Assembly (NCBI RefSeq): GCF_014202895.1
Contig: NZ_JACHHV010000010.1
Coordinates: 1 to 46,483, forward strand
DNA: 46,483 nucleotides
From: Lactovum miscens
GTDB taxonomy: Bacteria; Bacillota; Bacilli; Lactobacillales; Streptococcaceae
Direction of reading: 5' to 3'
Positions within the stretch are counted from its first letter, which is position 1, and every line of letters starts with the position of its first letter. This document shows, piece by piece, positions 325 to 40,140 of the stretch. The notes beneath the pieces were generated by a model. The model was given only the letters and a program-made list of their open reading frames with translations. It made no database searches and was not told the origin of the DNA. Made by a program: the position numbers and the translations under genes.

Positions 325-1089
325 TTAGAAATCGGACCAGTCCTCATCTTTAGATTTATCTTCTTTGTAATTTGATTTTCCTTTTGGAATAGGTCCAAAC
401 CCGAAATTTCCAAAATCTCCAAGTGCACCATAATCTCCAAAATCTTCAGGGTCCTTCAAATTATTTTGAGTAGCATTCATTACATCACGAAAATTATGAT
501 GCCACTCACGTTTCATCTCATGACCTGCATGATGAATTTCTTTAGCTGCTTGACGCATCTCACCTTTAAATTCAAGACCGAAATTTCCTCGAAAAGGATT
601 TCCTGCAAAAGGGTTCCCTGCGAATTCATCCCAGTTCCATTCTTCCTCACGATGTGCATCAACCAGCTTTTGTATCAATTTTTTAAGCTCTAATTGTTCT
701 TCCTCCGTCAAAGCATCAAAAAGATCCTCGGAGAAGGCATCATATTGTCTCAAACGATCTACCTGAGCCTTTTTTCCTTTTTCAGTCAGAAACACACGAC
801 TAACACGCCCATCCTTTTCATCTGCACGACGCTCAACGAGGCCATGCACTTCAAGCTGTTTGACCTGAGCAGTCACGCTTGAGGGCTTAATATCAAGAAG
901 TTCTGCAATTTCTGCATTAGTAAGACCATCATTTTCCCAAAGTTTGATCAAAAGCCCTTGAGCTCCTGTTCTACTTCCCTGACGGTGCATTTTATTACGA
1001 AAGATTTCAACATGCATTGCTTTGATAAAGCGATGACTCCGCATGAGTTTTAGGAATAAATTTAAAAGATGATTTGTTTGATCAGACAT
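325..1089 (-). CDS. MarR-family regulator with His-rich, Gly/Phe/Asp-rich C-terminal extension
   Basis: A winged-helix transcription factor of the MarR family, 254 aa where the family is usually 140-160. The MarR fold covers roughly residues 5-148; the recognition helix region is near 55-80 (LTNAEIAELLDIKPSSVTAQ) and the wing near 85-103 (ERRADEKDGRVSRVFLTEKG). Residues 150-254 are an extension: a GNPFAGNPFRGN repeat, a His cluster (H186, H187, H190, H197, H198), then a Gly/Phe/Asp-rich stretch and an acidic end (DEDWSDF). It is the last gene after cydABCD, 123 bp beyond cydD, and has its own promoter inside a 19-bp inverted repeat (1145-1193), which suggests autoregulation. The start is preceded by only a weak GAAAG ribosome-binding site. 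The family call is firm; the ligand is unknown, and haem or metal sensing by the His cluster is only inference. Confidence 0.85.
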   Translation of the reverse strand: MSDQTNHLLNLFLKLMRSHRFIKAMHVEIFRNKMHRQGSRTGAQGLLIKLWENDGLTNAEIAELLDIKPSSVTAQVKQLEVHGLVERRADEKDGRVSRVFLTEKGKKAQVDRLRQYDAFSEDLFDALTEEEQLELKKLIQKLVDAHREEEWNWDEFAGNPFAGNPFRGNFGLEFKGEMRQAAKEIHHAGHEMKREWHHNFRDVMNATQNNLKDPEDFGDYGALGDFGNFGFGPIPKGKSNYKEDKSKDEDWSDF

Positions 1090-1117: not shown

Positions 1118-1193
1118 ACAACCAACTAATTAATTAAAAAAATTATATCAGTATATTTAGTTTTGTCAACAGATAAACTAAATATACTGATAT
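1118..1193 (-). promoter_or_regulatory. 19-bp inverted repeat: cyd terminator, marR promoter and probable MarR operator
   Basis: Perfect inverted repeat with arms 1145-1163 (ATATCAGTATATTTAGTTT) and 1175-1193 and an 11-nt loop. Read on the minus strand it is followed at once by a run of Ts, so it can end cydD transcription. The same minus-strand bases hold TTGACA, a 16-bp spacer and TATAAT, a near-consensus promoter for marR, with the second arm filling the spacer. A dimeric MarR protein binding the arms would block this promoter. The repeat and promoter are seen; binding is inferred. Confidence 0.75.
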
Positions 1194-1212: not shown

Positions 1213-2925
1213 CTAAATTCCTTTGTCCAAGGCATATAATCGGGCAAACTCAGGGTTAGTTATTAAAAGCTCATTTGGTGACCCATCGATCTTGATTCCT
1301 CTGTCTTCGATAAATATTACCCGATCAAGTTGGTTAATGCCCAACAAGTGATGAGTGATGAAAATAATTGTCTTGTCTTTTAACAAATCAAAGGCTGTCT
1401 TAAGTAATTTATTCTCGGTAATGGTATCAAGTCCAAGGGTTACCTCATCTAAAATAACAATGTCGACATTTTCCAAAAGAATACGAGATAAAGCCAAGCG
1501 ATGTCTTTCACCACCCGAAAATTGTTCACCAGCTTCATCAACCATGGTATCAAGTCCATTGGGAAGTTGTTTAACCAAATTCTTCAATCCAACTGCATCA
1601 AGTGCATGGTAAATTTCCTCATCAGTTGCATCAAGCTTAGCTATTGTCAAGTTGTTTCTCAATGTTGTATTGAAAATATAAGGATTTTGTTGAATCACGC
1701 CAATTCTTTGTTCAACATTCACTGCCTTTCTTGGATTTACCCCAGATATTAAAATTTCTCCTGATACCACCTCAAGATCTCCTCGAATCAAACTGGCCAA
1801 TGTAGATTTACCAGAACCTGAGCGGCCGAGAATTGCAATGTGCTCTCCGTGCTTAATATGAAGACTAAACTTCTCATAAATGATTTCATCTTTAGCATCC
1901 GCATAAGAAAAACTCATATTAGAAATAGAAATATCTGCCCCATCAATTTTCTGATCACGTACTCCTTCAGTTTGGTTTGGCAAATTATCTAATCTTCTCG
2001 CAGAATCTCTATAACGATTAGTTTCAACCCATGCATCTGACAATGGTGAAAAAGCATCAAAAAGTGGGAAAATCCCTAACACCACTGCCGCAATGTAGTT
2101 CGGATTATCTCCAGTCTTAAGATTTGATGAAGCCCAAGCCATCAAAAAAATAACCAAAAGACCATAAACCACCTGAATAACTAAATTACGTTTACGCGCA
2201 AACTGGAAAAGTTGCATTTGCTCTTCATGTACTGATTTTTCTTCCACTTTATAAATTTCAAGGAAGTCGCTCTTGCGTCCAGATAAAACCCAGTCAGAGA
2301 GCCCTAAGATATTATCTGTAAGCTTAGAATAAAGATTATTCCTGTAAAGCTTAAGTTTTTCATCTTTATTAACTGTTAACTTAACCGAAAGGTATGGAAA
2401 AACAAAATAGAGAGTCCCTAAGAAGATAGCTAAACCAATAATGAGCCATATTGAGAAAACACCTGCTAAAATTAATAAAGATATAATCAAAGTTCCGCCT
2501 ACGAAGACTGGGAAAAGAGTTCGTAAATATAAATCTTGTAAGTTTCCGATATCTTCATTAAGCAAACCTAATAGTTCACCTAAACGATGACGATTTGCAA
2601 GCTCAATTGCTTGAGACTCGAGTCTAAAATAGAGTTTTTTACGCAAAAGAGAAGTGACTCGAAAAATCCAATTATGGCTGGTCAAGCGTTCAACATAACG
2701 AAGTAAGGGACGACCAATACCAAAAATTCTTACCATCAGTGTTGGCACATAGATGATCAAGATGTTCTCTGGCAAAGTAGCTGATCGAGAAATGACATAA
2801 CCTGACGAGAACATCAGAAGACCTGCAAAAATCATTGTCAACAAGCCAAGTAATATAGCAAGAAACTGTCCAAAACGATATTTTTTGAAAAAAGGTTGTA
2901 TCCAGTCAGATTTTAAAAATTTCAT
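1213..2925 (-). CDS. cydD: CydD-type half of the CydCD thiol ABC exporter
   Basis: An ABC exporter subunit of 570 aa with an N-terminal membrane domain (six expected helices, about residues 15-300) and a C-terminal ATPase. CydC and CydD form a heterodimer that exports cysteine or glutathione and is needed to assemble cytochrome bd. Visible motifs: Walker A GRSGSGKST near residue 367, signature FSGGERHRLALSR and Walker B VILDEVTLGLD. The Walker B has Val where most ABC proteins have Pro (DEPT), a common sign of the less active site in heterodimeric exporters. The start overlaps the end of cydC by 4 bp (ATGA), so the two are translationally coupled. Naming follows the Bacillus order cydABCD. 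It is the last gene of the oxidase operon before the terminator at 1145-1193. Confidence 0.9.
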   Translation of the reverse strand: MKFLKSDWIQPFFKKYRFGQFLAILLGLLTMIFAGLLMFSSGYVISRSATLPENILIIYVPTLMVRIFGIGRPLLRYVERLTSHNWIFRVTSLLRKKLYFRLESQAIELANRHRLGELLGLLNEDIGNLQDLYLRTLFPVFVGGTLIISLLILAGVFSIWLIIGLAIFLGTLYFVFPYLSVKLTVNKDEKLKLYRNNLYSKLTDNILGLSDWVLSGRKSDFLEIYKVEEKSVHEEQMQLFQFARKRNLVIQVVYGLLVIFLMAWASSNLKTGDNPNYIAAVVLGIFPLFDAFSPLSDAWVETNRYRDSARRLDNLPNQTEGVRDQKIDGADISISNMSFSYADAKDEIIYEKFSLHIKHGEHIAILGRSGSGKSTLASLIRGDLEVVSGEILISGVNPRKAVNVEQRIGVIQQNPYIFNTTLRNNLTIAKLDATDEEIYHALDAVGLKNLVKQLPNGLDTMVDEAGEQFSGGERHRLALSRILLENVDIVILDEVTLGLDTITENKLLKTAFDLLKDKTIIFITHHLLGINQLDRVIFIEDRGIKIDGSPNELLITNPEFARLYALDKGI

Positions 2926-21795: not shown

Positions 21796-21813
21796 TAAAC
21801 AACTAGAAGTAAT

Positions 21814-21841
21814 AAAAAAGCTATCCAGAGGTAGCTTTTTT
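21814..21841 (-). terminator. guaB terminator
   Basis: Stem AAAAAGCTA / TAGCTTTTT with loop TCCAGAGG immediately after the guaB stop, with T-run on the minus strand. Confidence 0.9.
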
Positions 21842-21848
21842 ATTACTT

Positions 21849-23003
<1,155 letters not shown>

Positions 23004-39599: not shown

Positions 39600-39984
39600 A
39601 TACAATAGAAAAATATATGCAAAATCATAAAATGCTGAGATTGTGTTTATAGCTTTATAATTATTACATTTGCGAAACGATTTCTACCCCTAATCCCTAA
39701 TTTGTAAAACTTTTTGGCTAATCCCAAGTCAATTTAATAAATTTCAGTTCTCGATAGTTTCGTACATATATTTTTTGCAATAAATTTTGAGTTTAAAAGT
39801 AGTCTGATCTTATAAATTTTGAAAGTTTAACTTGTGTGAATCTGTTATCTAAAATAATATCGCACCATGCAAAATAAACATACTTCCTTTTTATTTCAAA
39901 TCCCCACATTTATTCATAATAGGACATTTTACAGTTTTAGAAAACATACTAGATAAACATAAGAATATTGATATTTTCCTAATA
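39600..39984. other. AT-rich gap
   Basis: No gene, no clear promoter and no repeat seen between the TetR gene and the terminator of the small basic gene. Confidence 0.4.
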
Positions 39985-40020
39985 TAAAAAAACGCTATTC
40001 AATAAAGTCAGCGTTTTTTT
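39985..40020 (-). terminator. Terminator of the 38-residue gene
   Basis: Stem AAAAAACGCT / AGCGTTTTTT around a 14-nt loop; reading on the minus strand a T-run follows directly after the small gene. Confidence 0.85.
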
Positions 40021-40023
40021 ATA

Positions 40024-40140
40024 TTAGTCTTCTTTTTTTTCGACGGGTTTCACAACTTGTTTAACACCAGTGTGATTGTAGTGAGCGTGACCACCAGAAC
40101 GTGCGTTACGTTTACCTGACTTCTTTGACTTATATGCCAT
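40024..40140 (-). CDS. Small basic protein of 38 residues
   Basis: A minus-strand frame from ATG 40140 to TAA 40024. It begins MAYKSKKSGKRNARSGGHAH, then YNHTGVKQVVKPVEKKED. It has a GGGAG ribosome-binding site 9 bp before the ATG and a strong terminator just after the stop, so it is a real transcribed unit. The N half is very basic with Gly/Ser and two His pairs; the end is acidic. There is no membrane segment. The make-up suggests a nucleic-acid or ribosome-associated protein, but I do not recognise a family, and function is unknown. Confidence 0.75.
   Translation of the reverse strand: MAYKSKKSGKRNARSGGHAHYNHTGVKQVVKPVEKKED

Follow-up and report, generated by a model that had tools for sequence, protein, structure and literature searches.

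Comparison with related loci makes it likely that a perfect 19-bp inverted repeat between cydC and rmaB of Lactovum miscens serves as the upstream one of two operators, O1 and O2, through which RmaB would regulate its own promoter; the chances are about even that the same 58 bp also serve as a terminator of the cyd cluster. Autorepression of rmaB through O1 and O2 is well supported as a prediction. Within the window (the whole stretch of DNA analyzed, 46,483 nt), the locus is most likely an autoregulated MarR promoter whose operator appears to have grown into a terminator-like hairpin.

According to this model, RmaB, a MarR-type repressor, would bind the half-sites TTAGTT and AACTAA, which embrace the -35 box. 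O2 (1106-1129), a less perfect copy positioned over the transcript start, would be bound together with O1, and RmaB dimers on the two sites would exclude RNA polymerase from rmaB; release of RmaB on a signal would raise rmaB. Beyond the operator core, the symmetry extends to 19 bp, which of all the loci compared is seen only here, and it would give transcripts arriving from cydC a long hairpin and a T-run, placed exactly where rmaB transcription should begin.

The regulator gene, the repeat, and the rmaB promoter

The regulator gene (325-1089, minus strand) encodes a 254-aa protein of the MarR family with a long Gly/His/Trp-rich C-terminal tail that ends in WSDF. The Pfam MarR model (PF01047) scores 49.5 bits against a curated cut-off of 24.6, and no NCBIfam equivalog scores the protein above its own cut-off. 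The protein and its L. cremoris counterpart are 50% identical over 202 aa. In L. cremoris, the genes downstream of the homologue are, in turn, a flavodoxin gene, an esterase-like gene, and lmrA; this is the order llmg_1860/rmaB, llmg_1859, llmg_1857, and llmg_1856/lmrA given in a passage on L. lactis, and it supports the identification of the window protein as RmaB. As judged by alignment and gene order, the window gene is an ortholog of Lactococcus RmaB, with which it also shares the neighbor cydC. RcrR of streptococci had been considered as the nearest characterized regulator and was dropped, RmaB being named in the L. lactis passage. Passages of two papers (PMC3139573, PMC3164122) place the genes from rmaB to lmrA in the putative CesSR regulon of L. 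lactis and report 3.1- to 1.8-fold induction of these genes upon membrane-protein overproduction. CesSR is the envelope-stress regulon of L. lactis, and deletion of rmaB is reported in the first of the two papers (PMC3139573) to make growth ~20% slower.

Homologues at an E value of 1e-20 or better occur in 27 of the 295 family genomes, representing four of ten genera, and in all five genomes of the window's genus. A contig scan with an alignment of homologues yielded 70 named loci from Lactococcus, Floricoccus, Weissella, several lactobacilli, and a few metagenome bins; the scan with the single protein alone gave no relative. By tblastn, 21 of the 79 distinct regions upstream of rmaB homologues contain cydC (window included). 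The long tail of RmaB proteins has a conserved end, W-x-(D/E)-F, at 19 loci (L058-L071, L074-L076, L078, L082) as well as in the window, and in many lactobacilli the tail is Trp/Phe/His-rich.

The arms of the repeat, 1145-1163 and 1175-1193, are 100% complementary and enclose an 11-nt loop. Read on the minus strand, 1175-1193 is the upstream arm (the 5′ arm in the cyd transcript) and 1145-1163 the downstream arm. The repeat is intergenic and lies 19 nt past the stop of cydC (1213-2925, minus strand, assigned by domain and family matches; the stop ends at 1213). This is the last gene of its cluster, for which the sequence-only reading had given the order cydABCD; the actual order is cydA-cydB-cydD-cydC. 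The 46-kb window contains three perfect dyads of at least 14 bp with loops of 3-30 nt (20, 19, and 18 bp), the repeat being the 19-bp one. The other two (21804-21851 and 39979-40027) are likewise intergenic and are followed by T-containing tails. Dinucleotide shuffling of the intergenic stretch 1090-1212 (1000 rounds) never produced a perfect dyad longer than 14 bp, compared with the 19 bp observed. The 19-bp inverted repeat claimed earlier is confirmed. The minus-strand RNA 1215-1125 folds at -23.1 kcal/mol (z = -6.5; 0 of 200 shuffles fold equally well), and a second RNA-fold computation gave z = -7.4. Three of the 19 pairs in the arms are G-C. A scan of the genome for further copies of the 19-mer gave none at 0-2 mismatches and five at 3 mismatches; the absence of a second copy at 0-2 mismatches rules out a dispersed repeat or a mobile element.

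On the minus strand, the rmaB promoter consists of TTGACA (1169-1164), a 16-nt spacer, and TATAAT (1147-1142), with TG before the -10 box. It is the sole 12/12 match within 900-2200; this region has six promoter-like sites compared with 4.7 expected, which leaves the perfect score as the one notable feature. The -35 box is located inside the repeat loop. The downstream arm, 1163-1145, covers the whole 16-nt spacer and reaches three bases into the -10 box, in agreement with the earlier proposal that the second arm occupies the space between the two promoter boxes. Transcription of rmaB is expected to start at about 1135, at the T-run. This run, a possible terminator tract for cyd transcripts, was also part of the earlier reading: seven T are indeed present (1142-1136), but they begin 2 nt beyond the stem, after AA.

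Predicted operators in relatives and ahead of lmrA

Alignment of the promoters on TTGACA places TTAGTTT a few bases ahead of this box and AAACTAA directly behind it. The inner repeat so defined, with the core TTAGTT-N13-AACTAA around the -35 box, constitutes the predicted RmaB operator O1 (1157-1181, minus strand), and it matches 12 of 12 half-site bases in the window. The second predicted operator, O2 (minus strand), is situated in the rmaB leader at an offset of 52 bp from O1 and matches 11 of 12; it also turned up independently in a relaxed genome scan. The alignment comprises 30 of the 79 distinct upstream regions, namely those of the Streptococcaceae type with a TTGAC-anchored O1 and two from Weissella. 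Left out were four regions with O2 but no O1 (L033, L034, L037, L081) and a further 45 rows, nearly all from Lactobacillaceae; among the left-out rows, mostly Lactobacillaceae, many have a single operator ~70 nt ahead of the gene. The O1 score is the best of all TTGAC positions, and the background was taken from 20 shuffles per locus and a reversed-pattern control.

At least 11 of 12 half-site bases of O1 are present in 26 of the 30 loci (window included) and only nine in the other four (L009, L015, L025, L026). O2 reaches at least 10 of 12 in all 30 and at least 11 in 29; in mononucleotide shuffles, a score of 10 was reached in 12 of 900 and a score of 11 in none. The offset between O1 and O2 is 47-50 bp in 27 loci, 39 bp in two, and 52 bp in the window. 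Across the 70 named loci, a dyad of 11 or 12 of 12 was found in 60 and a lower-scoring one in 10 (20 shuffles per locus); the lower-scoring dyads of L088, L091, and L107 were equalled by 11, 7, and 9 of 20 shuffles, respectively. In some relatives the half-sites differ symmetrically (TTAGCT...AGCTAA in L107 and L119), and such a like change in both half-sites is as expected for a symmetric dimer site. The operator is also kept in L010, which has no cydC upstream. Center to center, the half-sites are ~18-19 bp apart, a wide spacing for a single MarR dimer. Among the 79 distinct upstream regions, no perfect dyad around an operator core is longer than the window's 19-bp run, the next longest being 15 bp (O2 of L009) and 14 bp (O1 of L011 and L028).

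Two further features of these leaders were observed. L035 (Lactococcus termiticola) has a 33-nt near-perfect inverted duplication upstream of rmaB that pairs O1 with O2. Moreover, a conserved small frame of 34-37 aa, with a core like IRLIERPDELL..FDEQL, is present between promoter and rmaB in L019, L020, L022, L023, L024, and L036; similar frames were seen by eye in L012-L014, and the frame is absent from the window.

The strict 24-26-bp pattern TTAGTTT-N3-5-TTGACAAAACTAA occurs at 17 places in 16 of the 295 family genomes, compared with none for the reversed control. Fifteen of these places precede an rmaB homologue by up to ~820 nt; one of the fifteen has the opposite orientation. At the other two (in genomes G017 and G042), O1 and O2 are situated directly upstream of a gene for an LmrA-like exporter. 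The G017 exporter is 61% identical over 471 aa to the LmrA-like protein of L066, and the start of the G042 exporter is almost identical by eye to the LmrA-like protein. The exporter encoded behind the L066 rmaB homologue matches BmrA and the solved fragment 1mv5 (430.9 bits), which we take to be LmrA. The presence of O1 and O2 ahead of unlinked lmrA-like genes is the strongest argument that the element is the binding site of a regulator and not a promoter oddity. Collectively, half-sites conserved at the -35 box ahead of rmaB and ahead of unlinked lmrA strongly support the earlier suggestion that the repeat would act as an operator over the promoter of the regulator gene.

In the L. miscens genome itself, an LmrA ortholog was not found, the best matches being 29-32% identical; linkage to lmrA is visible only up to the contig end, 324 nt past rmaB. 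A wider regulon in this genome was considered and rejected. The pattern TTAGTT-N9-16-AACTAA has two places compared with 17 for its control, and the one other than O1 looks like an ordinary terminator; relaxed operator scans gave 46 and 33 two-mismatch places, below the 87 and 73 of the controls. In one L. cremoris record (L065, 5185-6606), the lmrA frame appears as several shorter frames, as if interrupted.

The closest known system is the Lactococcus rmaB-llmg_1859-llmg_1857-lmrA locus, which has an orthologous MarR regulator and the same promoter with O1 and O2, and most lactococci examined also have cydC upstream of rmaB. The window differs in that its genome is without an LmrA ortholog, it has no CesR-like box, its repeat arms are 19 bp long, and O1 and O2 are 52 bp apart instead of the 47-50 bp found in Lactococcus. 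Among the closest solved relatives of the window protein by profile is Staphylococcus aureus MepR (4ld5, E 4.1e-15), a MarR repressor of itself and of a multidrug efflux pump with the operator signature GTTAG; the half-site spacing and the partner pump of MepR and RmaB differ.

Possible termination and the cydC-rmaB junction

The repeat had also been read as the terminator of the cyd genes. In favor of this are its long stem, the T-run, and its being the sole hairpin at this place, no other having been found between cydC and rmaB in the window; against it are the low G-C content, the late start of the T-run, and support from one of three scorings. By hairpin and T-run score, the repeat read from cyd ranks 12th of 30 candidates in the window, with a score similar to those of candidates close behind other gene ends, and 6th when read in the opposite direction. 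It fell below the cut in two other terminator scorings, one of which applies a loop limit of 8 and the other a stricter tail cut; in the former, its absence is explained by its 11-nt loop. Like intrinsic (rho-independent) terminators, the repeat provides a hairpin and then a T-run soon after the last gene of a cluster. Unlike them, it has 3/19 G-C pairs, an 11-nt loop, and a T-run 2 nt off, and it overlaps the next promoter. A role as terminator is plausible. With its AT-rich stem, the repeat would be a moderate terminator at best, and we consider the chances about even that, as the sole terminator of the cluster, it also stops some of the cyd transcripts.

The junction was compared at the 21 loci with cydC upstream, window included. 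A hairpin with a T-run separate from O1 is present in 11, of which six were marked by the script (L013, L015, L016, L020, L022, L028) and five were added by eye, the stem running into the T-run or lying farther off (L019, L023, L024, L027, L035). By the script alone, 12 of the 21 have a hairpin with a T-run in the interval from cydC to O1. At six loci (L017, L018, L021, L025, L026, L070), the 3′ arm of the cydC hairpin, with the T-run, is the left half-site of O1. In L012 the hairpin between cydC and O1 is doubtful, and between cydC and O1 no hairpin with a T-run was found in the same-genus relatives L009 and L029 or, besides O1 itself, in the window.

The separate lactococcal hairpin is often TCAGTC-N4-GACTGA between an A-run and a T-run, a sequence close to TCAGHCTnnAGDCTGA, which a passage of PMC4447274 gives as the CesR/LiaR motif. 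A CesR-like box with at most two mismatches is present in 10 of the 30 aligned loci, compared with 0.05 expected from shuffles. In nine of the 10 it is located 24-26 nt ahead of the rmaB -35 box (48 in L027). Eight boxes directly follow cydC (L016, L019, L020, L022, L023, L024, L027, L028), and the other two lie behind other genes (L014, L036). Because rmaB is listed with the CesSR genes, these eight lactococci probably have their CesR box for rmaB in the cydC hairpin. According to a passage of the same paper (PMC4447274), the S. mutans protein failed to bind the 16-bp repeat when the adjoining A-rich stretch was missing, and the lactococcal CesR-like hairpins do carry an adjoining A-run. In these relatives, the CesR/LiaR box resembles the window repeat in being an inverted repeat upstream of rmaB with the shape of a terminator (A-run, stem, T-run). 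It differs in sequence and position, and the box is absent at the window's rmaB promoter, where the best match in the scanned stretch has 6 mismatches; the whole window has one two-mismatch match, elsewhere, where chance gives 1.05.

Taken over the lactic acid bacteria, the cydC-rmaB junction may repeatedly use a single inverted repeat as both the stop signal of cyd and a regulator site, in three ways: as a CesR box, as a half-site arm (in the garvieae group), and as the whole operator (in the window). We put this forward tentatively.

Alternative readings and implications

The sequence-only reading had coupled expression of the marR gene to read-through from cyd. Nothing found beyond the overlap supports that claim: the hairpin needs no protein to form, and L009 and L029 are without a hairpin with a T-run at this place. 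A related reading is a two-layer element, in which RmaB bound to O1 would roadblock polymerase coming from cyd and, without RmaB, read-through would add to rmaB expression, which would then track cyd. Operator, hairpin, and T-run do coincide within 58 bp, 19 nt past cydC; however, most relatives keep the operator together with a separate cydC hairpin, so the coupling is not a conserved design, the two same-genus relatives have no hairpin with a T-run at the junction, and L010 retains the operator without cydC upstream. We regard this reading as unlikely. The long arms might instead be a mutational by-product, template switching being able to perfect near-palindromes, in which case the operator would be real and the terminator incidental. 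The inverted duplication in L035, where O2 comes close to being a reverse copy of O1, is in keeping with such a process, as are the outer bases of the window repeat, which match no conserved outer motif of the relatives. The loss of a separate terminator in the window and the presence of the T-run fit selection equally well, and we hold the by-product explanation to be possible, if on the doubtful side.

That the repeat is a cyd terminator only, with the promoter overlap due to chance, would account for the hairpin energy, the T-run, and the position after cydC, but the half-sites are conserved in relatives with another terminator, in relatives without cydC, and ahead of unlinked lmrA, which makes this very improbable. 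Just as improbable is that the repeat is the site of another regulator, e.g., CesR. Although a passage of PMC3139573 includes rmaB among the CesSR genes of L. lactis, and 10 of 30 loci have a CesR-like box close to the promoter, the window promoter is without the box (6 mismatches at best) and elsewhere the box is separate from O1. The preferred reading remains the operator O1 of an autoregulated rmaB promoter.

For RmaB, which in L. lactis has a growth and membrane-protein phenotype according to a passage of PMC3139573, O1 and O2 provide a concrete and testable predicted operator; a described RmaB binding site was not found in the literature searched. The predicted operator is tied to lmrA, a much studied multidrug exporter gene, even in genomes where it is no longer next to rmaB. 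A published terminator doubling as an operator was likewise not found in the literature searched, which is no proof of absence. The loci compared form a small natural series that runs from a separate terminator and operator through partial to full fusion of the two, and this series is useful for asking whether protein binding and formation of the RNA hairpin interfere. If the reuse of the junction is true, regulator occupancy and termination would share base pairs there in three different ways.
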